Shown: positions 1 to 60,160, counted from the first letter of the stretch. The stretch is 64,000 nucleotides of DNA from Platanthera guangdongensis (GCA_039583875.1 CM077159.1:106417295-106481294); one strand, 5' to 3'. Made by a program: numbers and translations. Notes: generated from the sequence alone by a model not told the origin.

Positions 1-1430
1 ACTTCCAGAGGGATACACCATAGAATTTGCGTATTGTTCCAACACCTCCTTCTTTAGAATAATTGTTGGCTCTTATAAGGCAAAATCTAAGCAGACGACA
101 TCTAGTTTCCTGATAACAAACATGATTTCTTTTATTGCTTCATGAAAGCCATTCCTTACTACCTTACTTCCTTCATACAGATAATAATTCTTCTTGGGAG
201 CAATTTTTTAGCACCTTGGAGATTCTAGCTGTCGCGAGAGCTGGAGAGTGCTGGACAGAGACTAGGGCAAAGTTTTTTGTGTACTTTAAACCTAAACACT
301 TTGGCCTATTTTATATGCTTTTATAACAAGAAGGAAATGAAGTGTTGCGTACCTGCATAAGTGTCAAGTTTATATCTGATTGAAGATATTCACGTGGCGA
401 TTGACGCCTAGAACAAAAGTTTTAGCGTGGTTACTTCCTAGGAAATCTCCATTAAACTCCCAAATCAAGCTCTCTTGAGCCGATTTATCTCCTAAACATT
501 GGATCTAAAGATCTAGCAACAAGGGAGAGGGTAGGAAGCTCACTTGGTTTCTGGCCATGGATCGTGTCCTCCTTGGCTGCTTGTCGTGTTCGAATTTCTG
601 GCAATATTGTGTTCGGTTTGTCGTTCTTCAGGAAGAGGGAAAAAGTCAGCTGATGAGAAAGCCTTTCTGAGTTCGGTTATCCTTATAAAAAAGTGGCTGG
701 TGATTTTGGGTTAAAAGTCTGCTTGCCATGTGTCACTCTCCCATAGGACCGCACTTTTTATAACATAAAATAAGTTTCCGAAAAGATAAAATGTTGTCCT
801 GTACAAATTTATAAGTACCATAAATGACTTGGCCGTGCAGAGAAACTACTAAGTCCATTCGTCGTGTATACTCGATGAATTTTCGGAATCACTCAATGAA
901 TCACCGAGTGCATTAAGTCCGTTACACGAGTCATCTCGATAAGTACACGTGTCCACTCAACGAATTTCATAAGTCAACTCCTGTTCACTCGATGATTTGT
1001 GGAGTCCTCTCGACGAATTCTCAACTCTTTTTGACCAATCATTTTGAAAAATTTCACAAGTCCACGCGAGTTCACTTGGCGAATTCGTCGAGTCTTTTCA
1101 AGTTCACACGAAGAATTCATCGAGTCATCTAGACTAATTCACGAGTCTTCTCGACTATTTCTCGAGTCATCTCGCCAAATTGACGAGTATTCTCGACTAT
1201 TTCTCATTTAATCTCGATGAATTCATGAGTCTTCTCCACTATTTCTTGAGTCATCTCAATGAATTCACGAGTCTTTTAAACTATTTCTTGATTCATCTCG
1301 ACAAATTCACACCAGGCTTGTTCTAACTGCCGTCCTTGGACTTGGGGTTCTCTCCCAACACTTTCTACTGGTTCAAGTCACCATAATGACCCCTAAACAC
1401 ACACGAGGGGGTATAGCTCGAAATGGTACG
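1..1430 (-). repeat. GYP-1 probable 3' LTR (first part, runs off the window)
   Basis: Non-coding DNA downstream (in sense) of the GYP-1 integrase tail. On the minus strand it starts near 1430 with TATAACGTACCATTTCG, which is similar to chromovirus LTR starts of the TGTAACGT kind with a decayed second base. It contains a palindrome array (840-1315). No second copy is visible at the right edge, which would be expected if the LTR is over 3 kb and the two window edges hold different parts of it. The LTR call is inference. Confidence 0.45.
840..1315. repeat. Palindrome array in GYP-1 probable LTR (CTCGTGAATTCATCGAG type)
   Basis: About fifteen imperfect copies of a short inverted motif. One half is ACTCG or ACTCGW, the centre is GAATTC, the other half CGAG or CGAGT, with units such as gacgaattc, cacgagtc and catctcga alternating every 20-30 bases. 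In the better part (1080-1310) a longer period of about 55 bases is visible, ending in 'actatttct'. Many copies differ by C-to-T changes at CpG. Confidence 0.7.
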
Positions 1431-1455
1431 TTATAAATCCTATAAACAAACAAAA

Positions 1456-1473
1456 GATTTCGTCCACGAAATC
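1456..1473 (-). other. Perfect 18-bp palindrome near the end of GYP-1 coding region
   Basis: GATTTCGTCCACGAAATC has perfect 8-base arms around CC. Read on the minus strand it matches the GATTTCGTGGACGAAATC-like motif often seen just after the integrase tail of plant chromoviruses and just before the 3' LTR, which fits its position here. The family link is from memory. Confidence 0.55.
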
Positions 1474-1601
1474 GAGCTAAGTCTACAGATAACAAATTAC
1501 AAAGCATACAAGGTAAATGTTTTAAATTTACCGTGTGGAAACAATGCCGGGTAGCATTGCTGCATAATATCTATAGGTTCCCGTGTGTACACCTCTTTTC
1601 C

Positions 1602-2060
1602 CTAGTTGGACCACAAGACCTTCACCAATGAAACACTTTTACTCCTCAGCCTTCGTACATCATAATCTATTATCCGCACCGGCTCTAGTTGTACAGACCT
1701 ATCAGGTGCCATAGGGCCAGATGTAGCGGTGAAAAATTTCTCAGGATGAAGTAGTGCTTTCCTAAGTGAATACATATGAAAGACATTATATAAGTTCTCC
1801 AATTCATGTGGAAGCTCCAGCCTATAAGCTAATGGACCAATCTTCTCCAAGACGGTGTAAGGCCCCATATACCTCAGGCTGAGCTTTATCCTCCCATGAA
1901 TACACGACACACCATCCATTGGCCTGAACTTTAAAAATACCTTGTCACCACTTGGAAATCCACCATCATGTGTTTTACATCATAGTACTTCGCTTTTCGG
2001 CTCCGAGCCTCTAGTATGTGATCTCAGATCAATCTAATCTTAGCATCGGTGTCATCGATG
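1602..2060 (-). pseudogene. GYP-1 integrase C-terminal part (GPY/F-type motif and chromodomain-like tail)
   Basis: The open stretch 1919-1602 encodes 105 residues with MGPYTVLEKIGPLAYRLELP, the GPY/F-type motif of gypsy integrases, then EPVRIIDYDVRRLRSKSVSLVKVLW, the start of the degenerate chromodomain-like tail of Tekay-type elements. Upstream (1920-2060) the frame continues with stops through residues such as DDTDAKIRLI and DHILEARSR, the usual linker after the catalytic core. The preceding core lies at 15540-16218, on the far side of COP-A, and the TSD TACTC marks the break. The tail would tether the integration complex to chromatin. It is a broken copy. Confidence 0.85.
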
Positions 2061-2065: not shown

Positions 2066-3602
2066 TGAAAGTGCAAGTTAGATCTGATATACTCTAGAGG
2101 GGGGGGGGGGGGTGAATAGAGTATGGTGCTTGCTAAAAACTTTTTACAATAGTTGTTGTATTCCTAAGTGAACAGGGAAGCAAATGAACTACAACAACTA
2201 TTTAATCAAAAAGCAATCACAAACCACAGCCAGAAAACAAAAGAAAGTAAGCAACCAGATGACACAAGGAGCTATAGTGGTTCCCCAATCAACCTGGGTA
2301 CATCCACTCTTCTACCACCCTAGGTAGGAATCCACTGCAGGATGAGTTGATCAGGTGTCCTGGGCACCAATGAGCTTTTGATAAGGTGCTCAAAAACCAA
2401 ACCAGATTTTTTGATCAGGTGTCTTGCCACCATTGAGTTTTGACAAGGTCTCAGAAACCAGCACAAACTTTTGAAGGGAGTTTGATAAACCCTTTACAAC
2501 AGAGAGAGAGGGATGAGATGATCTTCTCTGTCAACAATCAGAGAGAAGATAGTGGATGTTGTCAAAGCTCCCCCTGATATCTTGAGTTGTTCAGGAAGTG
2601 AAGCTTTGCAGTAGGGTGATAGGCCTTCAGAAAATTTGAACTCCAGCAAAAGATGATTTCAGCAACAACTGAAATGTGTGGTGTCTGGAGTCTTGAATGA
2701 TGATGGCCTTTGAACACTGGAATCAAAAGGGATCTGAAAATTTCAGTGTGTTGATCTCCTTTTATGATGGTGTTCCTGTATGAATTCTAAGACTGAGAAT
2801 ATCTGCAACTCTTTCTCTTTCTGTTGTTATGATTGTTGTAAGAGTTGTTGTTGATGATGTTATTCTTCTATGTTATTATGTTTTTTAGCAGAATATGAAT
2901 ATCTCTTTTATTTCTTGGATTTGAATGAATATTTCTCTGTCTAAGATAACCGTTAGCCTGTCATAAACGACTTCCTTAACTGCATTTGTCTTCTGGAGGA
3001 AAGTCCAATAAAAATATTCCTTTGAAAATCCCTTGAAACTTGCTCCAGATTAATTGAAAACGGCTACAAGATCCTTGAAATAAATGCTGAGAATAATTCC
3101 ATAAATATCTGAATTTGAATCTTGAAAAACGTCGATCTCACCAAAAAAACGTCGAACTGAGCTCCACTATCATCGAACTAAGCTCAGAGAATGGACTTAT
3201 ACTGAAATAGAGATTGTCGATCTGAGCTCAACTATCGTCAAACTGAGCTCAGAGATAGAGAAACAAACTGGAGACAAGAACGTCGATCTGAGCTCGAAGA
3301 TCGTCGAATGGAGTTCGACGACTTGTTGAAGTTGAGCTCAGAGATCGTCGAATGGAGTTCGATGATTCGTCGAAGTGAGCTCAGCGATCTTCGAATGGAG
3401 TTCGACGATTCGTCGCACTGAGCTCGACGAAAGGACTTAGTCTCCTGAACTGAAATATCTGGTCTTGAGAGCAGCTTTCAAACCTAAATACTAACCCTTA
3501 GACTCAATTCTAATTGACCTTTAGATCTATACAAGGAGGTCAAAATAGATTTCCTAAAGACATAGTGATCCTTGCCCAAATCAGTAATAGGGTGTTCCAA
3601 CA
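2066..3602 (-). repeat. COP-A 3' LTR
   Basis: Near-identical to 14011-15534 over its whole length. In sense it starts TGTTGGAACACC at 3602 and ends ..CACTTTCA at 2066, the TG..CA form. A G tract of 14 bases (2099-2112) stands where the other LTR has 7. It includes a palindrome array at 3125-3430. Confidence 0.9.
3125..3430. repeat. CGACGA palindrome array in COP-A 3' LTR
   Basis: About ten copies of the paired motif TCGTCGA or gTCGAACT / gAGCTCGACGA, for example 3350-3375 and 3395-3428, arranged as short inverted repeats with GAGCTC or GAnTTC between the arms. The same array lies in the other LTR at 15060-15362 with a few base differences. Confidence 0.8.
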
Positions 3603-3618
3603 ATCTCCCCCTATTTGG
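3603..3618 (-). promoter_or_regulatory. COP-A polypurine tract
   Basis: In sense, AAATAGGGGGAGAT lies directly before the 3' LTR start TGTTGGAAC. This is the position and make-up of the plus-strand primer of LTR retrotransposons. Confidence 0.75.
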
Positions 3619-3805
3619 GTTAGGATTACTATTTACAGATATTGGAAAAATAAAAACATACAAAGCAGAGATATAATAAACAAGACATTGCAGAAACACA
3701 GACATTATCTCAGATAGTTCAGAAAACAAAATATACTGTCATCTTACAGAATCATTCTTTTTCCTTGCTCTTTATAAGAACTATTTCTCTGTTAGGATTG
3801 AGAGC

Positions 3806-6697
3806 TTACTTCTTAGATCTTCTATCATCAGCTGCACCTAAAGAGGTTTGTTGCTTTGGCCTGGGCACTACAGCTTCTGGATGCACCTTCATATAGCTTT
3901 CTGAATCAAAACATTTACTGGAGGAGTATCTCTCAAGCTCATTCTTTCTTTGATCTGATAAAGTAGTGATATTTGAAGTATCTTTTCCTTGTTCTCTAGC
4001 TTTCTTAATTTGGTCCAAAGCAGCCAATTCTTTCATTCTTGCTGTCCATGAGGTGGGGTTATTTTCTGGATCCTCAAATGGAATAGGAGGCTCATATCTA
4101 TTTGAAGGATTATCTGGAGGAGCTCTGGAAGAGACTAGTTCTTTCAGCTTATAAGGGAAGGGACCAGAAGTTGTGTCAGATGGACCTTGTCCTTCCCTTG
4201 GATAAGGATGTTGCCTGGAATATCCTTTGGAGTACACTTTGAGTTCTCTCTGATATTCTCTATACTGTCCTCTTCTGGACTGGTAACCTCTAGATTGATT
4301 ACCTCTATACTGGGATCTACCTTGAGGTTGATATGAAGTTTGGCTTCTGGCAGAGGATTGGAAAGCAGAACTACCACCTGCACCTGAATCAGGTGAGGGA
4401 GGAGGAGGAGGAGGATTAAAATGGGAAGATCCTTTGTCATACTTTCTTTTCTTTTTCATAGCCTTCAGTTGATTCCTGGAGTATTGCATCCAAGGTTCTG
4501 TGATAGGGCAATCATGCAGTATGTAGTATGGAATGTCATTTGTATCTTTTACTTTCTCTAGAGGAACTCTTTTCATAGCCTTGCTTCTGGCTTTCCTTTT
4601 CCTTGTAATTGTAGCAGAGGAATCATCTGAGTCAGTCCTGAACTGATCATTATCTGAGCTTGGAGGATTATCATATACTGCATCAATCCTTTTGAGATAA
4701 TCTTTTTGTTGTTGAGACTGAACAGAAGAAGCAGCAGAGACAGCAATAGTAGCAATAGCAGGAAGTGGAGTAGAAGCAATACTGGCAGAAGGAGTTGTGA
4801 CAGCAGATTCAGATACAACACTTTCAGAAACAGAGGCTACAGCAGCAGTAGTAACAAATGAAACTGGAAAATAAATTGTAGGAGCAATAGCAGCAGTAAC
4901 AGCAGGCTCAAAAACAAATGCCTCTATCATATGCATGTCCTCAAAAACATCAATATCAGAATTAACAGAAACATCAGTAACAGCAGGAGGAGCAGCAGTA
5001 GTAGGACTGTCAACAGTGTTGAAGGAATTTATATAAGAGCTTATTAAGCTGGGGTCACATCTGGAAATAGGCACAATGGCCTTAGTCAGATCTTCAGATT
5101 GCTGGACTGGCAGGCAGTTGAAGTATATAGAATCAAAAATTGATAACAGTGACCTGAGGTCCACTGTGAGGAATGCAATAGATGCAGCTGGAGCTTGGAC
5201 TGAAGATACAACAGCAGGCAATCTTTCAACTTAATGAGGCATCTCCCCCTGCCTAGATGCAGTGAGAACTGGATCAAGGCACCCATGAGAAGGGATTGCC
5301 TGAGAAGGAAGAATGGAAGAAAGCCTGGCAGACAGTTCCTGAACTGTTTTGAGAAGGAGAGCCAAAGAGGTCTCCAGCAAGAGGGATAGCTTTGGAGCTA
5401 TCAGCTCATATAACCTGTCTGCAAGGGCTGGAAGATCTACTTGCTCAAGAGGTACTTGAGCAGAGGTAGGGATGGATGAGGTAGCAATGAAGGGTGGAGC
5501 AGCAGGAGATGTGGTAGGAGAACCCGTGGATTGAGGGAATGATGGTTGGGAAATTGGAATTGTGGAGATGGAAGAGAGTGGAATGGAAATGGATGGTGTG
5601 AAGGATGGAAGAGCAATGATGTCTTAAATTAGTTGTTGATAAGAGGTGGATGAGGATGGTGGCTCAGGAGGGGATGAGGGAGAATCATCCATATAAGAAT
5701 CATCTATAAGAGTGAAAGATGGAATATGAGAGGATGAATCAATATCTAGGTGTGGGTAGTGATGTAGAGGATGGAAGAGTTCTTTAGTGAGTGGTGGAGT
5801 TTGAGAAGGAATTGAAGTTGGAGATTGGGTGGAGATTATGATGGTGGATGTGACTGTGGTAGATGAAACAAGAGGTGAAGGAGGAGGAGAAGAAACAGGC
5901 AAGTCTTCTACAGGGGCAGAAACCTGAGGGGAAGAGACTGAGGCAGTCCTAGTGCTTGAAGTAGAAATTGCAGAGGGCCTGCTGGGCTTGACAATCTGCC
6001 TGTCCCATTTTCCAAATAGGGCACAAGTAAGCCTCTTGGAGGCATTGATGTGCATCCCACTGGAAACAAGCAGTGCAGGGCATATGTGGTGAAGGAACGG
6101 CCCTAAAATTCTTCCAAAATTAATAAAGTTCTTGTTAATCTTTTTCTTAATCAAATCAAAGAAAACTTCTCCCTAGTTGAGTTGTTTCTTGTCCACTAGG
6201 GCACCCATCAGACAGAGTTGATACCTAGATATGGTATCATGAGCTGAGTGTTTGGCCAACAATACCTTGCCAACAACATCAGCTAGAAATCTATATTCAA
6301 CAGACTGATTTTTCTTCAGCAATTTGCTAAGGTTTGCTTCTGAGTGTCCCATCCTTTCAAGCATATTAGAATACTCTTCTCCAGAAAGTTCAACAGAATC
6401 TGCTCTAGACTTTAATTGAAAAACCTTTGTCAATGCAGCAGGTGTTAGAGATACCTGGTTTCCTGAGATGCTTCCAACCACTGTATTCTGATCCAGTTTA
6501 TGGGCAGTATACACCCATTCCTTAATCTCATCTGCAGCTAATTTGATCCTTGTGGTCATGATGGTAACTAGCTGTTGTTCTTTGAAAAGTTCCAGAATCT
6601 CCTTGAAGATTTGATCACTGTTGTTGAAAGAATCCATGTCGATATCAAATCCAGCATCAAATTTCATTACGGCCAAGATGGCGACTGAGACTGCCAT
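3806..6697 (-). pseudogene. COP-A third ORF (plant transposon-type domain plus Pro/Ser- and RG-rich tail)
   Basis: One reading frame of about 960 codons runs from ATG 6697 to 3806, cut by three in-frame stops (6173, 5624 and about 5232). The first 210 residues form a folded, mostly helical region (for example LTPAALTKVFQLKS, then GALVDKKQLN and FGRILGPFLHHICP) that resembles the 'putative plant transposon protein' domain also found in ORFs of other plant retrotransposons. The middle is rich in Ser, Pro and Thr. The end has a basic QGRSQYRGNQSRGYQSRRG stretch that could bind nucleic acid. SIRE-type elements are known for an extra, sometimes called env-like, ORF in this place; I see no clear signal peptide or membrane span. 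The same frame across all three breaks shows it was once a single protein. Its function is unknown. Confidence 0.7.
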
Positions 6698-6834
6698 TGA
6701 TTACTGCAAAAACGAACAAACAAACGACCAAGTGTAGAGAAGTTTGGAGGGAAAGAGAAAATTTGCAGAGAGTATGAAAGCGCAAAGGGAGAATGACGGC
6801 CGAAAAAATGAGTTTTATATTAGGGTTCGACGCA

Positions 6835-7110
6835 GAAAAGGAAAGATCGTTGAACTCTGTTCGACGATCTTGGCTTCTAAAGGAAACTGAAAGGTCATCA
6901 ATAGCATCGATCTCCGTTCGACGATATTGGAGAGCGTCGAGCTCCGTTCGATGATAGTTCAGAAAACAAAATCGTCGAGCTCCGCACGACGATCGCTGAC
7001 CTGAAGAAGGATAGTTAGCACTATCTGAGAAGCGCTGAACTCTGGTCAATGATTTCGGAAGTCGTCAATCTCCGTTCGACGATCTGGGGGAAATCGTCGA
7101 GCGCAGTTCA
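6835..7110. repeat. CGACGA palindrome array between COP-A pol and third ORF
   Basis: Repeats such as 'gttcgacgatc', 'cgtcgagctccg' and 'atcgtcgagcgcagttc' recur every 25-40 bases. The motif is the same as in the LTR array of this element, but the copies lie in the pol-ORF3 spacer and run into the start region of the third ORF on the minus strand. Confidence 0.75.
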
Positions 7111-7195
7111 GAGACCAGAAACACTCTATACACTAGAAAAAGCACTTTGATTTGGCTATTCTTGGTCATTTTTAGATTTTTGAAAATCTTGGATA

Positions 7196-8110
7196 TTATT
7201 TTAGACTTCCTCCAGCTAACGTTCCTAACTGATTCAGGAAGAATGTATGTTTCTTTTCATCCAAGGGTTTGGTGAAAATATCTCCCCTTTGCAAATCAGT
7301 TGAGATATATTGAAGTTCAATTTTATTTTTCTCAACATTATCCCTTAGAAAGTGATGCCTAATTTCTATGTGTTTTGTCCTAGTATGGAGGACTGGATTT
7401 TGTGCTATAGAAATATCACTGGTATTATCACAAAATATTTTAGACTTTTTTAAGTTGTAGCCATAGTCTAGGAGTTGGTTTTGAATCCACAATATTTGTG
7501 AACAACAACTACCTGCAGCCATGTATTCAGCTTCAGCAGTTGAAGTTGACACAGATGTTTGTTTCTTGCAAAACCAGGAGACAAGTCTGTCATCAAGAAA
7601 CAGACAAGTTCCACTGGTGCTTTTCCTGTCTATTCTGCATCCAGCATAATCAGTATCTGAAAATCCAGTTAAGTCAAATGCTGAGTCTTTTGGATACCAG
7701 AGACCTAGATTTGGACAACTTTTTACATACCTAAGAATCCTTTTTACTAAGGTTAGGTGTGACTCTCTAGGGCTTACTTGGAATATAGCATATAGGCATG
7801 TAGCAAACATTATGTCAGGTCTACTAGTTGTAAGGTACAATAAAGAGCCAATCATTGCTCTATATGTTGTCTGATCAATAGGTTTCCCATGTTCATCAGC
7901 ATTTAATACAGCATTGGTAGACATAGGTGTTTTCATACATGATGCTTCAGACACACCAAATTTCTTAACCAATTCTTTTGTATACTTGGTTTGAGAAATA
8001 AATATGCCTTCAGCATGTTGTTTGATTTGCAATCCTAGAAAGAAGGATAGCTCACCCATGCTACTCATTTCAAATTTAAAATGCATTAGGTTGGAGAACC
8101 TTCTGCACAA
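7196..8110 (-). pseudogene. COP-A pol: RT C-terminal part and RNase H
   Basis: A 304-residue open stretch. It begins in the RT connection (MGELSFFLGLQIKQ, then TPMSTNAVLN, YRAMIGSLLYLTTSRPDI) and continues into Copia RNase H (DLTGFSDTDYAGCRIDRKST, where the first catalytic Asp lies; AEAEYMAAGSCC with the Glu; IFCDNTSDISIAQNP with the next Asp; HTRTKHIEIRHHFLRD). It ends at a natural stop after FTKPLDEKKHTFFLNQLG, so the C-terminus is the usual one. It is in the same frame as 8114-10348, from which single stop codons separate it. Confidence 0.9.
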
Positions 8111-8113
8111 ATT

Positions 8114-8524
8114 TTAATCAGTAGAGCCAAATATAATATCATCTACATAGATTTGTACTAGTAGGGTATGGGACTTATGGGTTCTAATAAAAAGAGTTTG
8201 GTCTACTCTACCCCTTATAAACTCATTTTTTAGAAGAAAACATGCTAGGGTCTCATACCATGCTCTAGGAGCTTGCTTTAGACCATATAATGCTTTATGC
8301 AATTTGAAAACATAATCAGGATGAGTTGAAGAGATAAAACCTGGGGGTTGTCTGACATAGACTTCTTCTTTGATATCTCCATTGAGAAAGGCACTCTTTA
8401 CATCCATCTGGTATACTTTGAATCCTTTGTGTGCTGCATATGCTAAGAAGATTCTTATGGCCTGTAACCTTGCAACTGGTGCAAAGGTCTGGTCATAATC
8501 TATCCCTTCTTCTTGAGAGTACCA
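8114..8524 (-). pseudogene. COP-A pol: reverse transcriptase palm
   Basis: The open part (8407-8114) holds the Copia RT landmarks [36 protein letters not shown] and the catalytic [14 protein letters not shown] (YVDD). A stop at about 8111 separates it from the next segment. Upstream (8524-8408) the frame continues with the usual [19 protein letters not shown] stretch after a stop at 8525. The YVDD site itself is intact. Confidence 0.9.
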
Positions 8525-9649
8525 TTAAGCAACTAACCTTGCCTTGTTCCTTACAATGACTCCTTGATCATCTAACTTATTTCTGAACACCCACTTTGTT
8601 CCAACAATATAGTGATCCTTTGGCCTTGGTACTAGTTCCCAAACTTTGTTCCTTTCAAATTGATGCAACTCTTCTTGCATTGCAATGATCCAGTGTGGAT
8701 CTTGCTCAGCATCTTGAATGGATTGAGGTTCAATTTGAGAAAGGAAGCAAGTGTGCATCAGGTTTTGCTTGACCTGATTTCTAGTTTGCACACCAGCTAA
8801 GATATCTCCAATCACATGGGAGATTGGATGGTCTCTTGATGTTACTAAATCAACAGGAGATGTTGATTGTTCACCAACCTGTGTTGTTGTTTCCTCTAGT
8901 GGTACAACAACTGGCTCTTCAAGAAGTTTCTCTTCAAGATGTTGAATGTCTTCTTCATCTTCACTGCTTTCCTCTTTTTGAATGATTTGTAACTTGTCCA
9001 AGTCTTCAGTAAGAAAGTGTACCTGCAAAGGTTCTATGGTAGAAGTATTCTTCTCCTTGAAAGACATGTTAGATTCATCAAAAGATATATGAACAGATTC
9101 TTCAATTTTAAGAGTTGATTTATTATATACCCTATAAAATTTACTGATCATGGAGTATCCCAGAAACACTTCTTCATCAGCTTTAGCTTGAAATTTTGCT
9201 AAGTATTTCTTGTCATTATTATGAATGTAATAAATACAACCAAAAATTTTAAAGTAATCTACTTTAGGTTTCTTCCCTTTGAGTAATTCATAGGGAGTTT
9301 TGCCCTTCAGTTTATGTATTAAACTTCTGTTCAACACATAGTTGGAGGTGTTCACTGCCTCTGCCCAAAAGGATAGAGGAAGGTGAGCATCTGACAATAA
9401 TGTAGTGGCAGATTCAATAAGGGTTCTATTTTTCCTTTCAGCTACCCCATTTTGTTGAGGAGTTTTAGGAGCTGAGAAAGTATGCCTGATCCCTTCACTC
9501 TGACAGAACTCTTGCATAAGAAGAGAATCAAACTCTGTCCCATGATCACTTCTGATCAGGGTAATGTGAGTATTGAACTCAGTCTGTATGCATTTGAGAA
9601 ACTCTGTCAAACAATTAAAGTTATCAGACTTCTTCCTCAGAAAGAACAC
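8525..9649 (-). pseudogene. COP-A pol: integrase core and start of RT
   Basis: A 374-residue open stretch. It opens inside the integrase core (FFLRKKSDNF, IRSDHGTEFDSLLMQEFC with the second catalytic Asp, and TPQQNGVAERKNRTLIESA with the catalytic Glu), passes the integrase C-terminal GKTPYELLKGKKP and FLGYS motifs, an acidic linker, and reaches the start of RT ([27 protein letters not shown]). A stop replaces a Trp codon of the FTW motif at the join with 9650-10348. Confidence 0.9.
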
Positions 9650-10348
9650 TCATGTGAATCTAGAGAAGTCATCTACAACCACTAAAGTATAAGATTTCCC
9701 TCCTAAGCTTTGTACTGTAATGGGTCCAAAAAGATCCATGTGTAACACATACAAAATCCTAGGTGAATCACTCTTATTAAGTGACTTGAAACTATTTTTG
9801 GTTTGCTTGCCTAATTGACAAGCTCTGCAGAGTCCTTCCTTCTTGTAGGGGCCAGAAGGTAGTCCTCTAACAAGGTTGTCCTTGGATAGCCTAGCAATGG
9901 TTCTAAGGTTTATATGTCCTAATCTCTTATGCCACAGTTCATTAGGTCTACTAATAGAGTAAAACAAGCAAATATCTACTTTAGTTAAAAGAAAGTCTAC
10001 TAAATAGATGTTACCTTTCCTTTTACCTGTCAACACAGTTGTGTTGTTCTCTGATTTGATCTTGCATAAGGATTTGCTGAAAGTCACTTGGTAGCCTTCA
10101 TCACATAGTTGACTGATGCTGATCAAGTTGTGCTTTAGTCCTTCCATATAGGATACTTTCTTGAATGTGACTGTGCCAATCTGGACTGCACCATATCCTT
10201 TTGTTAGTCCAAAGTTTGAATCACTAAATATTACTTTGGGTCCAAGCTTGGCTTTGAAGGATGTGAAGTTGTCCTTGGTTCCTGTCATGTGCTTTGAGCA
10301 CCCACTATCCAGATACCATTGCTGGTTTGATGTTGGATAGGTCTTCAC
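9650..10348 (-). pseudogene. COP-A pol: protease, pre-integrase zinc region and first part of integrase
   Basis: A 232-residue open stretch starting at a GTG (10348). It holds the Copia aspartic protease motif WYLDSGCSKHMTG (catalytic DSG), the HNLISISQLCDEGY block, the HHCC pre-integrase region (LWHKRLGHIN .. CRACQLGKQTK) and the start of the integrase core (LHMDLFGPI with the first catalytic Asp, then VVDDFSRFT). The frame differs from the gag frame; the join at 10349-10388 is described separately. Confidence 0.9.
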
Positions 10349-10388
10349 CTACACATAAGACAATTTACTTATTTTTGACCCAGTTTAC
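10349..10388 (-). other. COP-A gag/PR junction: stop codon inside a 40-nt intron-like block
   Basis: In sense the gag frame reaches AAG, followed by GTAAACTGGG, a TAA stop and ..TGTGTAG, then GTGAAGACC in the PR frame. The block has GT..AG ends and is 40 nt. Leaving it out would join the gag frame exactly to the PR frame. COP-B has a 39-nt block of the same form at 28888-28926. It is short for a plant intron, so recoding or simple decay remain possible. Confidence 0.45.
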
Positions 10389-11237
10389 CTTGGGCCTAGG
10401 TTGATAACCTTTGAATTTAGAAATAAAAGATATCCCTGGTTGACTCTTATAGCCTTCAGGATGATATCTCCTTGGAGGTATTATCCATTCAGTATAAGGG
10501 TTAAATCTTTTGGATGAAGGACCCCTAGGTTTGGAATTTCATTTACCTTTGAAAAAGTTTTCAAAACTCTGATCTCTGCTCGACGATCGCTGAGCTGAGT
10601 TCGACGATCTTGGGTCAGATCGTCGAGCTCCGTTTGAAGATCGATTGTGGCAGAGTTCAGTGTTTAGAGATCGTCGACCTGAGTTCGACGATTTAGCCTG
10701 AGATCGTTGATCTGCATTCGACGATCGTCTAGCTCCGTTCGACGATTTCTGTTGAACTCTTGTTTTCTTGGGTAAGTCAGAATTCTTCCTAACTACCTCT
10801 ACAACTCCCTTACCTTTATCAGAGATAAATTTAATTGGGGTTGATAATACTATAGGTTGGCTGGATGAAGCACCCAAGCCCAGTGTACTATTGAATCTTG
10901 AGTTCACTGTGCTTGGGATGTCCATTAGCTTGATACTTCTCCCATTGAGGGATTCTTCAAGCTTTTTGGCCTCTGATAGCTCACTTTTCAGTGAAGCTAT
11001 CTGCTCCCTACAGCACTCCAACTCCTCAGAGAGTTTGATGTTTTCTGATTTTAAGGTACTGTATTCAGATAATTGATTTCTGAGAGAAATGATTTTCTTC
11101 TCAGATTTTAATAAATCTAAACATAGTGCTTTAAATTCACACTTACAGTCCTCAGAATTAAAATCAAAAGAACTTATTACCTGGTCCTCTTCAGATTGAG
11201 TCTCTGATTCAGATTCTGACTCTTCTGCATCAGAATT
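10389..11237 (-). pseudogene. COP-A gag C-terminal part with palindrome-coded SSN..RR repeats
   Basis: This continues the gag frame after the stop at 11238. It holds an acidic Ser/Glu stretch, a Leu- and Lys-rich helical part that looks like a coiled coil (ECCREQIASLKSELSEAKKL), the conserved LNGRSIKLMDIPSTVNSRFN block, and then a repeat region of peptides such as SSNGARRSSNADQRS encoded by the CGACGA array (10565-10755). A stop at 10539 follows FFKGK. The last piece (about 10538-10389) encodes the conserved WIIPPRRYHPEGYKS block before the PR junction. Confidence 0.75.
10565..10755. repeat. In-frame CGACGA palindrome array in COP-A gag
   Basis: About six units of the kind TCGTCGAACnnAGnTCGACGA, 30-40 bases apart, lie inside the coding frame. 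Their spacing keeps the frame and gives repeated SSN-x-x-RR(S) peptides. The motif is the one in the LTRs of this element (3125-3430) and in COP-B at 28455-28700, also in frame. Confidence 0.8.
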
Positions 11238-12377: not shown

Positions 12378-12496
12378 GTTTTGTGAAGATTTAATTCTAA
12401 TAACGAAATCAAAACAAGCAGATCTAACTAGAGGGATCTTTGGGTTCAGGTGTTAGCCTGTGCAACCACTAAGGTGTGGTATTTTTAACCAACCTC

Positions 12497-12508
12497 GCTC
12501 TGATACCA
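12497..12508 (-). promoter_or_regulatory. COP-A primer-binding site (tRNA-Met type)
   Basis: In sense TGGTATCAGAGC, complementary to the 3' end of plant initiator tRNA-Met. It should touch the COP-A 5' LTR, but the bases to its right (12512 on) are the start of the plus-strand COP-E LTR instead. Confidence 0.85.
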
Positions 12509-12511
12509 ATT

Positions 12512-12877: not shown

Positions 12878-12889
12878 TGGTATCAGAGC
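12878..12889 (+). promoter_or_regulatory. COP-E primer-binding site
   Basis: TGGTATCAGAGC directly after the LTR end CTAACA. It lies in the opposite orientation to the COP-A site 370 bases to the left. Confidence 0.85.
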
Positions 12890-12929
12890 ACACGGTCTAT
12901 TCCTTCTAATTGTGTGCGCCCTCTGATTC

Positions 12930-13565: not shown

Positions 13566-13599
13566 TCCCCCTCCTCCAGACTGTCCGCCTTGATGATGT

Positions 13600-13905: not shown

Positions 13906-13961
13906 ACTCAAGTGTTGTCACTTGTACTTAGAAACCTTTTTTTCATTTCCTTAACCTGCAC

Positions 13962-48700: not shown

Positions 48701-48766
48701 CTTGGCCTTCTGATAGCTGCCCCAGGCGATCAAATCAGACTGTTAAGTCTATCTTGAGCAACCTCC

Positions 48767-48777
48767 CTCTGATACAA
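48767..48777 (-). promoter_or_regulatory. COP-G primer-binding site
   Basis: In sense TTGTATCAGAG two bases after the LTR end TTTCA; the usual TTGGTATCAGAG with one G lost or changed. Confidence 0.7.
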
Positions 48778-50029
48778 CTTGAAAGTTTTGATTTCAAGAA
48801 CAAATAATCACCTAGAGGGGGGGGGGGGGGGTGAATAGGACCAATTCCAAAAACTTAAACAACTAATCGATTAATATCACATCGCAGCAATCTCATCACA
48901 ATCAAAACCAACAAAGCACAACACACAAAAATTTATAGTGGTTCCCCAATTGATGGGTACATCCACTTTTCCCCTTCGCCTATCTAGCAGCATATTAGAT
49001 TCGGCCAAACTTCCTTCTATCTTTATCAGATCCTCAGATCTTACAGCTCAGAGCCTAACAAGCTCCTACAACTCGGGCACAAGCTCTACCACTCAGATCA
49101 CCAAGATCCTACAACTCAAGTTCTTCCTAAGAACTCTACCACAAAGTGACTCCACATTCATACAGCTCAGGCAATCCATCCATACCTTAGTGTGAATCCA
49201 CACACCTACAACTCATACAACTCTTGCCCTACCTCAGCCTTTATAACACTGGCTTACAATTCAGGCCTTGGCCTTACCACTCAGATTCAGAATGAATCTT
49301 AAAAAGAAATATTAAAGATGATGAAATACATACACCAGAGAAAACTCTCTGTGCCTGTCTACCTAGACTGAGCAGATATCAGCCCTAACTTCTTCTTCAC
49401 AACGATAAGTTGATACAAAGATCTTGAAATGATGCCCGACTTGTTCTGGAATCAACTAGCAGATGAATCTGCTTTTTCTTCTTCAAGAATATCTCCTGAT
49501 CTAGACTGAGAAGATTTCAGCCCTTCCTTCTTCTTTGATGCAACAAATTGATCTTCAGATTTTGGCTCAGATTGGATCGGGAAGATATCTTCAGCTAGTG
49601 CAGGACTAGGCTATTTCGTCTCTCTTAGATGATTACTCTAAACCAACTGGAGTAGTTGTTGATTGCATCAGCAAACTCAGAAGCCCTTCAGATTTGATCT
49701 TGAAGTTCTTGGCTTCTACAACAATGGCGGATGAAGACGACGAACTCTGTTTCTCGTTTTTTTAATCAGAAATTAATCCAATTAATTCATTGATTATTTA
49801 GAACTCGATCTCTTTTGCTATTTATAATCCCATCACATTGGCGAGATGATCGACACGTGTCTCAGTTTTAACGGTGGTTAAAACCTCAGCTATATTAACT
49901 TGAGATTCACTGTAGACTGACGACGACGTTAATGTCTATTTACATCGAATCTGAACTTTGTTGACTTGTTCACTTTGCTGAGTCAGCATCATTCTGGACT
50001 TAGCCAAAATCAACTAACTTTTCTGAAAT

Positions 50030-50310
50030 CCTGCGTTCGACGAACTTCAAGCTTAGCTTGATGAAATCTGAACTCAGATTGACGAAACAGTGAAGCTGAG
50101 ATCGATGAATTCTCTTAGCTCACTTCTTTCATCAGGTGAAGGCTGAGGTCGACTAACTTCGAGGTCAGCTAGATGAAATCTTAGCTCCTATCGACAATTC
50201 TGATAGCTGAGTCCTTCTTATAGGTAAAAGCTGAGATTGATGAACTCTAAACTCCGGTCGACAAAAGCTAAGCTCAGCTCGGCAAATAGTAGACTCAGCG
50301 ATTCTGGACT
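50030..50310. repeat. Decayed CGACGA cluster in COP-G 5' LTR
   Basis: Counterpart of 38930-39190. More C-to-T and G-to-A changes at CpG than in the 3' LTR, for example TTGATGAAA for CTCGAGAAA. Confidence 0.75.
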
Positions 50311-50339
50311 TGGAAATTTCTTCAGCTTTACTTGATGGC

Positions 50340-50950
50340 GTTGAGAGCGTTGAGTGAGCTTGCCTCTCTCAACGATTCTGGACTTAGCCGATTTTCTAGA
50401 TTATTTACAGTAAGGCTATGAAAGGATAACCTTGACTCAACACTTCTAGCTGTATGGCGTTGAGTGAGTTGAGCTCACTCAACGCTTCTGGACATGGCCG
50501 ATTTTCTCAGGCTTTGTCACAGCAATCTCAATTCTTTCTTCTCAGCGGTCTCAGTTGTCTCAAAGCTTTTTGCTGAATGGCGTTGAGTGAGCTTGCCTCA
50601 CTCAACGCTTTTGGACTTAGGTAATTTTCCTGTCTGCCTTCTCTCATCGCTATTAGCTGGATGGCGTTGAGTGAGCTTGCCTCACTCAATGCTTTTGGAC
50701 TTAGGTAATTTTCCTGCTTGCCTTTTCTCAGCGTTATTAGTTGGATGGCTTTGAGTGAGCTTACCTCAGTCAACGCTTTTGGACTTAGGTAATTTTCTGA
50801 GTTTCCAGCTCCACCTTGAGTCCACCTGTCATTGTATTAGCGCTTTTTGCTGAATGGAATTGAGTGAACTTGCCTCACTCAATGCTTTTGGACTTAGGTA
50901 ATTTTTTGAGTTTCCAACTCCACCTTGAGTCCACCTGTCATTGTCTCTTG
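50340..50950. repeat. GTTGAGTGAGC..CTCACTCAAC hairpin array, COP-G 5' LTR
   Basis: Six to seven hairpin units. Three consecutive ones (50570-50790) keep an 84-base period so well that the minus strand shows a 28-residue repeating open frame, which is an artefact of the repeat and not a gene. Confidence 0.85.
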
Positions 50951-51086
50951 AACTAGTTGTCCAATCATTGTGACAAAGACTAACCTGTATGCATGAACTT
51001 AACCATACATCAAATACAACTATGTCTATCTCATTGACATGTTTGATATCATCAAATCAAGACTATTGGGATTAATGGCCCCAACA

Positions 51087-52793: not shown

Positions 52794-54320
52794 TGATGCG
52801 TGTAAATCGGCAAGCGCACCGGTCGCACAAGTAATAATGTTTGGGAATAAATCCCCGAGTGTCGGTCTCTTGAGGAATGCAATTAGCATAGAGCGGCTAC
52901 AGTTCAAAAAATATTGTTATGAGGGTTATACTTAGAAACGAGTAAAAAGGGGGCTTGAGAGATTATGGTTTCTTGATCTACTAAACTAATTAAAGCATGC
53001 GGGTCGAAGACACCGCTTCGCAAGGTGAGGTGAGAGTATCAGCCGCAATGCCGAACTTCGGTTGGGCGAGTGACCGGAAAGCTAATGGGTGGAAGTGTTC
53101 TTGTGCGGAGTGCAATCGGGTGAAACAAGGGTATGAAGTGGATGTGGAGTGGGCGAGGCGTATTCACACACACAACTCACAAGCATAAGAAAACTACAAA
53201 CATCCCATTAGATATAGAATAGAACATGTAGTTCATTACAATGTTATATCATTCCATACAACAGAGGAAGTGGAAGAAGTGTAAACCAATAGAGGGTGAA
53301 GATCCACCGCAGGTCGTGGCCGGAATAGCGAGTTGTCAATCTGCTTCCGGGCTCAGTCCGAGGAGGCTTCCGGTACCAACGAGCTGTCACCTCGAAGTCC
53401 TTTGAGTCCGTTCTTTAGGTTGTCTTCTTCTCCAACTCTGGTGAAAAGTTTGGAGTTGAGGTCGTCAATGGCTGGGAGCATTGCCAGAGGGTTTGGAAAG
53501 CTTCGGAATCGCCAGCTATGGACTCCCGATGAAGTTGGAGGTGATGGAGCAGTTGGAGAAGTAGAATGACACTTCCCGCATACTCCCTGATCACAGAAAA
53601 TGATGAGTGTTGACCTAAATCGTGGAGCGGGCCCTTAAATACGGAGGCAGCAAAAGTAGAGCACACGATCAGTGGCGCACGACCAGTGGTCGTGCGCACT
53701 GTCGGTCGATGATCGTGCGCAATTTCCAATTAAACCTGCAACTTGGAAAGAAACATCAATAGAAATGCGCACGATCAGTGGCGCACGACCGGTGGTCGTG
53801 CGCACTGAATCCACTGATCGTGCGATTGGTTAAGACAGAACTGCAGAAAGCAAGAGGTAAATGCGCACGAGCGGTGGCGCACGACCAGTGGTCGTGCGCA
53901 CTATGGCCAGTGCTCGTGCGATTACCCGAGCAGAATTTGGCAAAGGAGAATGTAATGCGCACGATCCGTGGAGCACGACTAGTGGTCGTGCGCAGTGAAT
54001 CTAATGATCGTGCGCAGTGTTCCTGTATCGTCGGGGTCTCCCGAGCAGTTCTGGAGCATGCACACGACCCATGCACCAGCAGAATAGGCAGATAGGCCAC
54101 CAAAAGTGCACACCACATTCTCAAGACATGGTTAAAGAACAAGTAAAACAAACGGAAATACCGAAACAACTAAAGCACACCGAAAACGGGCCGAAAGTGC
54201 ACTTACTCATGAAACAGACATAATAACAAATATGAACAAATAAAGATCTAAAGTGTAGTGCATCAATGAGAAAACTAGCCCGGATGAGTCCAAAAATAAG
54301 TATAAAATATGGACTCATCA
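52794..54320 (-). repeat. ATH-D 3' LTR
   Basis: It matches 58638-60160 along its whole length; TG..CA ends. Its open frames on the plus strand (such as 52997-53188) are repeated in both LTRs and have no family likeness. It includes a palindrome array at 53660-54060. Confidence 0.92.
53660..54060. repeat. GCACGACCAGTGGTCGTGC palindrome array in ATH-D 3' LTR
   Basis: Four units, each with a GATCAGTGGCGC start, the palindrome GCACGACCAGTGGTCGTGC and a trailing 'gtgcgcactg..gatcgtgcgc', about 105 bases apart (53665, 53767, 53860 and 53955). Confidence 0.88.
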
Positions 54321-57412: not shown

Positions 57413-58512
57413 CTTTGTCCAGATGCGTTAGGATTCCAAGAAAAGTTGGGGTGGTTTCTCACCCCCGGGTTGTATGTGTTTCCGTAAGGCACTCCCCTAT
57501 TTTGATTTGTTACAAAATTGACTGACTCATTCAGAAAAGAAGATTCATCTGGTACCTCAACTCCTAGGCATTCAAAGCTGTGGTGGTCGGTACTTCCGCA
57601 ACCTTGGCATGAGATTGCCATCACTGGTTCGGTGGGCTTGGGGATATCCACGGCGAATACTCTGCTTGTGCTTCGTGGGATGTTTCTTCTAGTGGTCCAG
57701 TAAGCGCTGTGGGTGGCGATGTCTTGTAAGATTCTCAGAGCATCATCTGGAGAAAGGTTCATGATTGTTCCTCTGGAGGCGGCATCGATCATGGCTCAGT
57801 GGTGAGGATCAATAGCGAAGTAGAAATTCTCGACCAGGTTCCACGTTTGGAATCCATGGTTAGGGCACTTCCTCAGCAGCTCGTTGAAATGCTCCCAAAC
57901 TTCAGCTAAACTTTCTTGATCGGCTTGCCGGAAGTTGGCTATTACTCGCCTCATGCTCACGATCCGATCTACCAGATGGAACTTAGCTAGGAATTTTGTG
58001 GTCAAAGCCTCCCAGGTGGTGGCTGTTCCAGGTGGGAGGGAATGAAGCCATGTCTTTGCTTTGTCCCTTAGTGAAAAAGGGAAGAGGCGAAGCTTAACTG
58101 TGTTGTCCGGGATTCCAGCGTAGCGGAACGTAGCGCAAATTTCGGATAATTCCACCAGGTGTAGATGGGCGTCTTCAGTAGCCATTCCTGAGAACTGAGC
58201 GTTGTTCCGAATGATATTCAGGATAGCTGGCTTAATCTCGAACTGTTGGTTGGTGATAGCAGGTCCGAAACCGGGGTATATGCTCCCGATGGTAGGTGTA
58301 GTGTAATCCCTCATGATGCGGATCTGGGGAGGGTTCACTTCATTTTCATCGCCATTTCGGTCGCCAGGAGGTATTCCTCCAACTTGGTTGCCGACATCGA
58401 TATTCAGCTGGTCTCCCATTGGGGATAAAGTGATGGCTGCGGCGTGTCTTCGTGCTAAGATAGTACGTTCGATCTCTGGGTCGTAGGCTACAAGATCTCT
58501 TGTGGCTCGACC
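57259..58512 (-). pseudogene. ATH-D gag core with zinc knuckle
   Basis: The frame starts upstream of ATG 58419, since LVAYDPEIERTILARRHAA (58500-58440) is conserved with ATH-C. The open part 58419-57796 holds the Retrotrans_gag-type core: FEIKPAILNIIRNNAQFSG, LHLVELSEICATFRY, VKLRLFPFSLRDKAKTWLHSLPPGT and WEALTTKFLAKFHLVDR. A stop at 57796 interrupts; 57792-57259 continues in frame with a knuckle-like CQGCGSTDHHSFEC. A frameshift near 57410 leads to the tail segment. Confidence 0.88.
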
Positions 58513-58613
58513 CTGTATTCACTGCGGCAAACACTACAAAAGGAAACAGCAATCAAAAACACTAACTCTTATAACAATATTTTTAGTCATCCTGAGTCGC
58601 TCTATAGTTGCAT

Positions 58614-58631
58614 TCCCCGGCAACGACATCA
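58614..58631 (-). promoter_or_regulatory. ATH-D primer-binding site (Athila type)
   Basis: In sense TGATGTCGTTGCCGGGGA, six bases from the LTR end. Same place as in ATH-C, with two to three base changes. Confidence 0.8.
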
Positions 58632-58637
58632 AAAACT

Positions 58638-60160
58638 TGATGCGTGTAAATCGGCAAGCGCCCCGGTCGCACAAGTTATAAAGTTTGGGAATAAATCCCC
58701 GAGTGTTGGTATCTTGAGGAATGCAATTAGCATAGAGCGGAAACAATTCAGAAAATATTGTTATGAGGGTTATACTTAGAAAAGAGTAAAAAGGGGGCTT
58801 GAGAGATTGTAGTTTATTGATCTACTAAACTAATTAAAGCTATGCGGGTCGAAGACACCACTTCGCAAGGTGAGGTGAGAGTATCGGCCGCGATGCCGAA
58901 CTTCGGTTGGGCGAGTGGCCGAAAAGCTAATGGGTGGAAGTGTTCTTGTGCGGAGTGCAATCAGGTGAAACAAGGGTATGGAGTGGATGTGGAGTGGGCG
59001 AGGCGCATTCACACACACAACTCACAAGCATAAGAAAACTACAAACATCCCATTAGATATAGAATAGAACATGTAGTTCATTAATGTTATATCATTCCAT
59101 ACAACAAAGGAAGGGGAAGAAGAGTAAACCAATAGAGGGTGAAGATCCACCGTAGGTCGTGGCCGGAATAGCGAGTTGTCAATCCGCTTCCGGGCTCAGT
59201 CCGAGGAGGCTTCCGGTACCAACGAGCTGTCACCTCGAAGGACTTTGAGTCAGTTCTCTAGGTTGTCTTCTTGTCCAACTCCGGTGGAAAGCTTGGAGTT
59301 GAGGTCATTAATGGCCACGAGCTTCGCCGGAGGGTTTGGAAAGCATCGGAATCGCCGGCTACGGACTCCCGATGAAGGTGGAGGTGATGGAGCAGCTGGA
59401 GAAGTAGAATGGCACTTCCCGCGTAGTCCCCGATCGCAGAAAATGACGAGTGTTGACCTAAATCGTGGAGCAGGCCCTTAAATACGGAGGCAGTAAAAGT
59501 AGAGCGCACGATTAGTGGCGCACGTCCAGTGGTCGTGCGCACTGTCGGTTGATGATCGTGCGCAATTTCCAATTAAACCTGCAACTTGGAAAGAAACACC
59601 AACAGAAATGTGCACGATCAGTGGCGCACGACCGTTGGTCGTGCGCACTGAATCCACTGATCGTGCAAAATGGTTAATACAGAACAACAGAAAGCAAGAG
59701 GTAAATGCGTACAAGCGGCGGTGCACGACCAGTGGTCGTGCGCACTATGGCCAGCATGCGATTACCTGGGCAGAATTTGGCAAAGGAGAATTTAATGCGC
59801 ACGATCCATGGCGAATGACCAGTGGTCGTGCGCAGTGAATCCAGTGATCGTGCGCAGTGTTCCTGTATCGTCGGGGTCTCCCGAGCAGTTTCGGAGCACG
59901 CACATGACCCATGCACCAGCAGAAGAGGCAGATAGGCCATCAAAAGTGCACACCACATTCTCAAGACATGGTTAAAGAACAAGTAAAACAAACGTAAATA
60001 CCGAAACAACTAAAGCACACTGAAAACGGGCCGAAAGTGCACTTACTCATGAAACAGACATAATAACAAATATGAACAAAAAAAGCTCTAAAGTGTAATG
60101 CATCAACAAGAAAACTAGCTCAGATGAGTCCAAAAATAAGTATAAAACATGGACTCATCA
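58638..60160 (-). repeat. ATH-D 5' LTR
   Basis: Matches 52794-54320; a few percent of bases differ by eye. Confidence 0.92.
59500..59905. repeat. GCACGACCAGTGGTCGTGC palindrome array in ATH-D 5' LTR
   Basis: Four units matching 53660-54060. One unit (about 59710-59760) has lost part of its tail. Confidence 0.88.

Follow-up and report, generated by a model that had tools for sequence, protein, structure and literature searches.

Arrays of short words in nested retrotransposons

The DNA analyzed here is a 64,000-nucleotide stretch of the Platanthera guangdongensis genome (GCA_039583875.1, CM077159.1:106417295-106481294), referred to below as the window, which consists of long terminal repeat (LTR) retrotransposons nested in one another and carrying clustered short repeats. 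An earlier note on this sequence had proposed that nearly every family has its own array of short CpG-rich palindromes. Three of the elements are Sirevirus-like Copia retrotransposons. COP-A (2077..15540, minus strand; Pfam gag, integrase [INT] and RVT_2 matches) has LTRs at 2077-3608 (truncated) and ~13965-15540 that are 95.6% identical, with a TCGTCGA/TCGACGA array in the 3' LTR (3120..3440, minus strand; 15040-15370 in the other copy), a linker array (6810..7130, minus strand; 5 heptamers versus 0.47 expected) upstream of a third open reading frame (ORF3), and an array within gag (10560..10760, minus strand). COP-B (24668..30712, plus strand; also assigned with Pfam) has lost its 3' part and lies within an LTR of the Athila-type element ATH-C; it has an LTR array of 18 TCGACGA and 1 TCGTCGA (24850..25640, plus strand) and a gag array with motifs in mixed orientations (28440..28710, plus strand). 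The third, COP-G (37825..51086, minus strand), has two kinds of array in its LTRs, part a with 6 and 1 copies of TCGACGA (38760-39238 and 49900-50340, minus strand) and part b with GTTGAGTGAG..CTCACTCAAC (41600-42200 and 50340-50930, minus strand), and a TATAAAT at ~49820-49826 (minus strand). Nested in one COP-G LTR is SOLO-H, whose array (39239..39760, plus strand) contains GACACGGGCGTGTC and two TCGACGA/TCGTCGA heptamers.

The remaining arrays are in elements of other kinds. The COP-E fragment (12508..13964, plus strand) comprises an LTR with GACCGCGCGGTC-type palindromes, TATATAA at 12780, a primer-binding site (PBS) at 12878 and a C-rich leader, and it has a post-leader array (13590-13905, plus strand) with 15 copies of TGTCGACA at up to one mismatch, versus 0.6 expected. 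ATH-C has an LTR array of GTCACGCCCGTGAC (17112..17720, minus strand) with TATAAAA at 17112-17118, and its second LTR copy (32000-33000) is split by an element resembling a terminal-repeat retrotransposon in miniature (TRIM). The LTR decamer is reused in the Athila linker array (21000..21720, minus strand) upstream of an ORF of the ATHILA ORF-1 family (19795..20853, minus strand; PF03078, 4e-7, 29.7 bits over a cut-off of 20.2), which places ATH-C among Athila elements. ATH-D has an LTR array of nested palindromes around CACGACCAGTGGTCGTG (53640..54060, minus strand; second copy at 59480-59900) with units ~94-106 bp apart. GYP-1 (Ty3/gypsy) is identified by the Tf2-1-like integrase SH3 domain of a gypsy pol (1605-1979; Pfam SH3_Tf2-1, 8.9e-21), and its array of ~21-bp repeats (840-1315, minus strand) has TATAAAT at ~807-813, the whole feature spanning 807..1315. 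The occurrence of arrays in unrelated families, and in LTR, linker and leader positions, is as the earlier note described it; the Athila linker array, the in-frame gag arrays, the sharing of words and the CpG-poor element bodies are additional to it. Exact matches in the window number 3 for GGTCACGCCCGTGACC, 3 for GCACGACCAGTGGTCGTGC, 3 for GACACGGGCGTGTC, 4 for TGTGTCGACACA, 1 for GACCGCGCGGTC and 68 for TCGACGA and TCGTCGA together; the GYP-1 motif quoted previously (CTCGTGAATTCATCGAG) has none.

A scan for inverted repeats (arms of at least 6, loops of up to 8) against dinucleotide shuffles in 128 bins of 500 bp found 305 in the window versus 143 expected, with 39 of the 128 bins at z>2 and 11 at z>4 in a first run, and 34 and 12 when rerun with new shuffles. 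The excess is not confined to the window, because a genome sample of 20 stretches of 2 kb (40 kb), taken at round-number positions on 20 contigs, is similar (189 versus 89 expected, with z above 2 in 22 of its 80 bins and above 4 in 10). We then scored 17 arrays individually (loops of up to 10, 200 shuffles) together with 12 non-array controls (60 shuffles), counting an excess as significant if no more than 3 of the 200 shuffles matched the observed number. Palindrome density above shuffled controls, which the earlier note predicted, is seen in 10 of the 17 arrays, at 4 to 12 fold: COP-B gag (10 versus 0.8), COP-G part b, SOLO-H (5 versus 1.2), COP-E LTR, leader and post-leader, COP-F LTR, ATH-C LTR (7 versus 1.5), Athila linker (14 versus 1.8), and ATH-D LTR (5 versus 1.0). 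It is not significant in the other seven (GYP-1; COP-A LTR, linker, and gag; COP-B LTR; COP-G part a, where 9 of 200 shuffles reached the observed count; and COP-F leader). Four of the 12 controls (COP-A pol, COP-B pol, COP-G body, and 33100-35590) also have an excess, of 1.6 to 2.3 fold, with counts reached by at most 1 of 60 shuffles.

Direct 8-mer repeats are above every shuffle in all 17 arrays, and in 4 of the 12 controls (COP-A pol, the COP-A ORF3 region, COP-G body, and the rest of SOLO-H). With direct repeats in 17 of 17 arrays and an inverted-repeat excess in 10, the general feature is therefore a clustered short word, of which the palindrome is one arrangement. The GYP-1 array has 76 direct 8-mer pairs versus 6.8 expected and no inverted repeats versus 1.9 expected, and the COP-B LTR and COP-G part a arrays consist mainly of direct repeats, many at 21-23 bp, or about two helical turns (10 of 17 neighbor spacings in COP-B and 3 of 5 in COP-G). 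Longer duplications of 73-74% identity are also present in the COP-B LTR array. Clustered short repeats thus lie at or near the positions where the earlier note placed its arrays, but palindromy is not common to all of them.

Shared words, CpG content, and motif conservation

The words are in part common to different lineages. In an unbiased ranking, CGTCGA (part of TCGACGA) is among the top five 6-mers of six arrays (COP-A LTR, linker, and gag; COP-B LTR and gag; and COP-G part a), and exact TCGACGA/TCGTCGA counts are 5-19 per array in COP-A, COP-B, and COP-G versus 0.3-0.7 expected (6 and 9 versus ~0.7 in the COP-A LTR arrays, where CpG observed/expected [o/e] is 1.6), the exception being the second COP-G LTR copy with 1 versus 0.1 expected. 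SOLO-H has 2 versus 0.18 expected (shuffle maximum, 2), and two sampled genomic stretches, L196 and L180, have 18 versus 1.25 and 7 versus 0.18 within their arrays. L196 starts with TGTAACA and is putatively LTR-like, and L180 is 70% identical to SOLO-H over 177 columns; a further sampled stretch, L186, with 10 heptamers, is a COP-A relative. To judge from their LTR ends, SOLO-H, L196, and L180 may belong to the Del/Tekay lineage. In the 5 kb next to L196 no match to a PBS was found, and the only frame noted, on the opposite strand, resembles by eye a Copia reverse transcriptase. SOLO-H itself is a solo LTR (39239 to ~41602) with TGTAACA..TGTTACA ends and a CGTTG target-site duplication, inside the COP-G LTR array.

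Both the ATH-C LTR array and the Athila linker array are built around a second word, CACGGGCGTG, which is found, within one mismatch, 8 times in the ATH-C LTR versus 0.04 expected and 5 times in SOLO-H versus 0.08; its reverse complement, CACGCCCGTG, occurs 10 times in L196 and 4 times in L180. The 9-mers common with the ATH-C and linker arrays are above every shuffle in SOLO-H (25 versus 5.8 expected) and L180 (23 versus 5.0), and not in L196 (20 versus 8.0; shuffle maximum, 21). Those common with the Sirevirus-like arrays are above every shuffle in four of eight sets (L196, L180, SOLO-H, and the Athila linker); A-runs account for part of the Athila linker count. Sharing of TCGACGA by GYP-1 was considered and rejected (2 exact copies versus 0.6 expected; 21 common 9-mers versus 18.9), although at one mismatch it has 12 versus 5.0 expected, with a shuffle maximum of 9. 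The view that each family has its own palindrome is supported only in part, as TCGACGA is common to the three Sirevirus-like elements and the SOLO-H-like stretches, and CACGGGCGTG to those stretches and the Athila-type element. The words of ATH-D, COP-E, COP-G part b, and GYP-1 are indeed different; fast motif turnover as a general rule is not supported.

The Sirevirus-like elements contain few CpGs other than those in the arrays. In COP-A, 104 of 123 CpGs are in arrays that make up 1,174 of 12,007 bases (COP-E fragment excluded), and one stretch of 3,361 bases has none; in COP-B the arrays hold 69 of 80 CpGs in 1,062 of 6,045 bases, and in COP-G (internal part and one LTR) the LTR array has 31 of 60, the remaining LTR 18, and the body 11. 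Each of ten ORF pieces from these elements has 0-3 CpGs, versus means of 17-77 under random synonymous coding, and four ORF pieces of other elements are within 1.4 standard deviations of the synonymous null. CAG and CTG stand at 1.06-2.18 of the mononucleotide expectation and 0.78-1.22 of the dinucleotide expectation in the bodies, so the strong depletion there is specific to CpG. Neither 1,500-base flank of the linker array has more than 7 CpGs in 26 of 30 COP-A copies; in the remaining four, one flank has 48-80, which other insertions may have brought in. The CpG-richness previously ascribed to the arrays applies to most of them but not to COP-G part b (o/e 0.40 and 0.49 in its two copies), and two ATH coding regions have an o/e of 0.94-0.98. 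In a separate observation, the Athila gag-pro region (21959-23620) shows the Sirevirus-like pattern reversed: CpG is normal, and CTG and CAG are reduced to 0.20 and 0.56, respectively, of the mononucleotide expectation.

Arrays are also present in other family members, as anticipated, with genome-wide matches (4.25 Gb in 274 contigs) for both families searched. For the COP-B LTR array, 40 of 7,324 candidates were scored and yielded 58 matching pieces, with split matches indicating that array content differs between copies; for the COP-A linker, 40 of 5,018 were scored, the window included. Counted against the window copy, transversions are less frequent in motifs than in spacers in the COP-B LTR (12/1,001 [1.2%] versus 220/4,485 [4.9%], P = 3e-9; 7 other copies), the COP-A linker (9/1,498 [0.6%] versus 281/17,652 [1.6%], P = 0.001; 29 copies), the COP-A gag array (3/634 [0.5%] versus 74/4,509 [1.6%], P = 0.02), and the COP-B gag array (3/236 [1.3%] versus 51/1,167 [4.4%], P = 0.02). 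These figures replace a first comparison in which motif sites were conditioned on the reference copy and spacer differences were counted both ways; it had given motif versus spacer A/T rates of 1.0 versus 10.6% (COP-B) and 0.3 versus 3.7% (COP-A linker), and CpG rates of 6.1 versus 8.8% (COP-B, P = 0.15) and 9.5 versus 7.0% (COP-A linker, P = 0.005).

Decay at CpG, which the earlier note expected, is evident in the COP-A linker, where 46 of 53 changes at motif CpG columns are C>T/G>A among 30 copies. Divergence there is 0.055 at motif CpGs versus 0.023 at array spacer G/C, and 0.036 versus 0.032 outside the array; because motif CpGs differ more than array spacer G/C, they seem to have been methylated after insertion. 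Between the LTR pairs of the window, the CpG excess is weak in arrays (74/359 versus 148/911, P = 0.07) and clearer outside them (45/208 versus 195/1,621, P = 3e-4).

The gag arrays lie in the C-terminal part of the protein and are read in frame as SSNxxRR repeats, from TCG TCG and CGA CGA in COP-A and as SSNxDRR in COP-B. CpG-bearing Ser/Arg codons number 18 of 30 in the COP-A array and 0 of 175 outside it, and 21 of 31 in the COP-B array and 2 of 115 outside. The array was matched at 13 of 14 places examined from the 29 other COP-A copies and at 4 of 6 COP-B places, and some genomic copies have stops in its frame. By eye, the gag relatives P0002 and P0009 (P. zijinensis) have SSNGDRR and SNxxRR repeats in the corresponding part; a search with the C-terminal part of P0002 matched itself alone. 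These features point to a constraint acting on the nucleic acid and not on the peptide alone. The in-frame arrays are the least explained part of the pattern and may be intragenic sites for array-binding factors or RNA elements.

TATA boxes, folding, and candidate roles of the arrays

We searched for TATAWAW within 120 nt of 17 array positions in element sense, counting second LTR copies. Six have it downstream (GYP-1, COP-A linker, COP-G LTR, COP-E LTR, ATH-C LTR, and Athila linker) and no position has it upstream, against a background of 384 of 6,388 windows (6%), a downstream bias with a binomial P of ~3e-4; a hand-picked subset (6 of 11) was set aside and not used. Two of the six cases precede an internal ORF: TATAAAA at 6813..6819 (minus strand), 122 nt upstream of the COP-A ORF3 ATG (6697) and exact in 29 of 30 linker copies, and, in the one copy seen, TATAAAT at 21005..21011 (minus strand), with the Athila linker array upstream of it and the ORF1 ATG (20853) downstream.

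Folding was assessed for 14 arrays and four non-array controls with 20 shuffles each. Sense-strand z scores are strong for the COP-A and COP-B gag arrays (-6.2 and -7.2, the latter for COP-B), SOLO-H (-9.5), the Athila linker (-11.7), and ATH-D (-11.9), and weak for three of the 14 (COP-B LTR, -1.4; COP-G part a, -1.2; COP-E LTR, -1.4); the COP-B LTR array reaches -5.1 in antisense, and one control reaches -6.1. Compensatory changes between arms, scored in six arrays, are clearest in the Athila linker (P = 0.002 and 0.014), partial in ATH-C (P = 0.010 for contiguous runs and 0.14 for matched positions) and SOLO-H (0.05 and 0.08), and not seen in ATH-D, COP-G part b, or COP-E, so that arm covariation supports predicted dyads mainly in the Athila linker. 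In element sense the word is mostly TCGACGA in COP-B and TCGTCGA in COP-G, and orientation and dyad order differ between arrays of one word. Because orientation and dyad order vary, folding is uneven between arrays, and 21-23-bp spacings are common in direct arrays, we read the arrays as putative sites at the level of DNA; the gag hairpins may also have RNA roles.

On this sequence evidence, the arrays are probably multicopy cis-regulatory modules read by host DNA-binding factors, and among the roles raised by the earlier note host-factor binding sites remain likeliest. They would act as upstream activating sequences with many host-factor sites, at least some of the factors being dimeric or cooperative, situated in LTRs, in several cases just upstream of a TATA box, and repeated before a downstream ORF in Sirevirus-like Copia and Athila-type elements as a likely second promoter for a separate transcript. 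Such arrays would grow by local duplication, with selection keeping the short word in replicating lineages while spacers drift, and different lineages would have converged on or exchanged words because, we propose, they use the same host factors; the sharing suggests that different elements may be using the same host switch. A more elaborate version is rather unlikely: the arrays would form a control port shared between lineages, in which orchid Sirevirus-like bodies were purged of CpG and kept it almost only in arrays of a 7-bp word, SOLO-H-like LTRs share that word, gag places it in frame through otherwise forbidden codons, and a CpG-sensitive host factor would switch several lineages along with separate ORF3 and ORF1 transcripts from internal promoters.

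Several observations weigh against the host-factor interpretation. A strict TATAWAW is lacking at 11 of the 17 array positions, namely the LTR arrays of COP-A, COP-B, SOLO-H, ATH-D, the second ATH-C copy, and COP-F, as well as the COP-E post-leader array and both gag arrays. For GYP-1, the ATH-C LTR, ATH-D, and COP-E, the number of 9-mers in common with the Sirevirus-like arrays does not exceed that of the shuffles, and the regular spacing can also stem from tandem duplication. For the motif-versus-spacer contrast, a motif had to be intact in one or both copies of a pair, which biases it mildly towards constraint, and motif transitions are not below those of spacers (5.2 versus 5.4% in the COP-B LTR and 7.9 versus 2.3% in the COP-A linker), as is expected under CpG decay.

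Four other explanations were weighed. That the arrays form hairpins in genomic RNA, for packaging or for recoding near gag/pol, or are templates for silencing small RNAs, is unlikely: the strong sense-strand folding of the gag, SOLO-H, Athila linker, and ATH-D arrays and the antisense folding of the COP-B LTR would fit, as would the small-RNA hotspots reported at maize Sirevirus palindromes (PMC10760457, PMC5311732), but two of the three arrays with little sense-strand structure carry the TCGACGA word, one of the four non-array controls also reaches a z of -6.1, and motif orientation is opposite in the sense RNAs of COP-B and COP-G. The hairpin role suggested previously does not suit every array: it fits the sense-strand folding of the gag arrays but not that of the COP-B LTR or COP-G part a. 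We think it quite unlikely that the arrays are a methylation platform, with CpG purged from the body and concentrated where a host reader that recognizes CpG, either methylated or unmethylated, would control the promoter next to it. The CpG-specific depletion of COP-A and COP-B bodies and ORF pieces is what such a platform predicts, but the CpG-rich ATH elements of the window have arrays too, the COP-A linker motif CpGs seem to have been methylated after insertion, and the LTR pairs show little CpG excess in arrays.

Slippage and unequal exchange in U3 could make functionless repeats, and both the varying content of COP-B copies and the universal excess of direct repeats are in keeping with this. 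This explanation is very unlikely, given motif transversions 2.6- to 4-fold under those of spacers, the same words in unrelated arrays, the TATA bias, and the codon exception in gag. Least credible, and highly improbable, is an element-encoded binder resembling VANC, in which the ORF3 product would bind the arrays and counter silencing: VANC recognizes short motifs within tandem repeats of noncoding transposon DNA (PMC5735166), and the COP-A ORF3 region, which by eye looks basic and RG-rich, comes after an array and a TATA box of its own, but COP-G and the SOLO-H-like stretches share the word and no ORF3 was noticed in them, by inspection without a homology search, and COP-B is truncated.

If the host-factor interpretation is correct, promoter arrays would be a wider design of plant LTR retrotransposons and not a Sirevirus peculiarity, extending a feature known mainly from one plant retrotransposon group; the common words would allow direct pull-out of the host factor, and the third ORFs of Sireviruses and Athila would have internal promoters. 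CpG-poor bodies with CpG arrays also allow the relation between methylation and element activity to be tested within a single genome.

Comparison with known systems and minor features of the window

Arrays of this general kind have precedents, which we compare here with the portions of the published accounts drawn on. Sirevirus palindromic CpG arrays are already known as repeated motif (RM) boxes (Bousios et al. 2010, PMC2829016), with a CGG-CCG core in 12 of 13 elements with RMs, and are said to be absent from classic Copia elements. COP-A is similar in layout, with the linker array, TATAAAA, and the ATG of ORF3 in the envelope (ENV) position (a candidate envelope gene), and has the polypurine tract (PPT) and LTR signature. 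It differs in that the core here is TCGACGA, CGTCGA being among the top words of COP-A, COP-B, and COP-G part a, and in that the COP-A and COP-B LTR arrays are not significantly palindromic; one array is in frame in gag, and arrays are also found in gypsy and Athila-type elements and in a Copia LTR that lacks the PBS junction of Sireviruses. That account hypothesized and supported an internal promoter for ENV in Sireviruses but did not conclusively identify one; COP-A has a conserved TATAAAA. Maize Sirevirus LTR palindromes are small-RNA hotspots (Bousios et al. 2016, via PMC10760457 and PMC5311732) and likewise form arrays in the LTR cis-region, with a different word, and the cis-regions of diverse elements are often repeat arrays (PMC10760457).

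LTR CpG islands are known for Del (Cruz et al. 2014, PMC4029996), where, as in SOLO-H, a variable CpG-rich region occupies the 5' part of the LTR; that account, as drawn on here, describes no short palindromes or words shared with Sireviruses, and its main text has no "palindrom." The VANDAL/VANC system (PMC5735166) similarly has a short motif built up by tandem repeat formation in noncoding transposon DNA, but concerns a DNA transposon with its own binder and a target, YAGTATTAY, without CpG. ONSEN (PMC3907296) is comparable in having an LTR motif read by a host factor and a loss of CG sites, but its promoter lacks CG and CHG, whereas in the elements described here it is the body that lacks CpG, which is dense in the arrays. 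Two further explanations were rejected: LTR-end attachment sites (PMC4963935), which are not described there as inner LTR repeats, and insertion targeting of palindromes (PMC6911290), for which the reported effect is mostly 0.1-0.3 bases. As far as the literature searched shows, it is new that lineages have words in common, that arrays occur in frame in gag, that element bodies are poor in CpG while most of it lies in the arrays, and that array, TATA box, and ORF form a unit in a Sirevirus-like element as well as in one of Athila type; in-frame gag arrays and CpG-free Sirevirus bodies were not met with in that literature, of which coverage was partial and no search was aimed at in-frame arrays. 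Among viral contigs, tblastn confirmed no relatives, and a pattern scan gave at least 120 stretches.

The Sirevirus-like elements were compared with the terminal signatures of Sireviruses. COP-A has AGGGGGAGATTGTTGG at its 3' LTR edge, which agrees with the Sirevirus PPT (AGGGGGAG then AT, with an LTR start of TG), and the PPT region of COP-G is AGGAAGAGATTG, with two mismatches in the octamer. The Sirevirus junction, ATTGG followed by the PBS TATCAGAGC, is found as ATTGGTATCAGAGC, exact in COP-A and COP-B, and as AGTTGTATCAGAGG in COP-G; the COP-B PBS, AATTGGTATCAGAGC, is at 26680, and AATTGGTATCAGAGC is present in COP-A as well. In Sireviruses the CA that ends the LTR stands immediately before ATTGG; there is one extra A in COP-A (its LTR also separated by the COP-E fragment) and TTTTA in COP-B. 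Linker AGGGGGAG octamers, of which Sireviruses have about four per element, number four in COP-G and two in COP-A, with none in their gag/pol, and COP-B is without the region.

The third ORF region of COP-A (3806..6697, minus strand) comprises pieces at 6173-6697, 5624-6154, and 3806-5221 and has no Pfam domain over the cut-off; its N terminus matches P0025, and all eight matches of the 3806-5221 piece are from Platanthera. The product is Pro-rich, basic, and RG-rich, by eye nearer to a nucleic acid-binding protein than to an envelope. Kinship to ATHILA ORF1 was rejected (best BLASTP E value of 0.71 and no Pfam link).

Some nesting events have unusual structures. The COP-E LTR, PBS, and leader (12497-13970) fit exactly between the 5' LTR of COP-A and its PBS. 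The COP-E LTR has PBS-like sequence on either side, and inspection by eye showed no clear target duplication. A small TRIM-like element (32129-32431) is present in the ATH-C LTR, and the sampled stretch L192 contains several pieces related to it. Another TRIM-like LTR-PBS-LTR unit (30715-31172) is joined to COP-B, whose 3' half is missing; the composite (24668-31172) is bordered by CACCT on both sides within the ATH-C LTR and looks as if it was inserted as a single chimeric cDNA.

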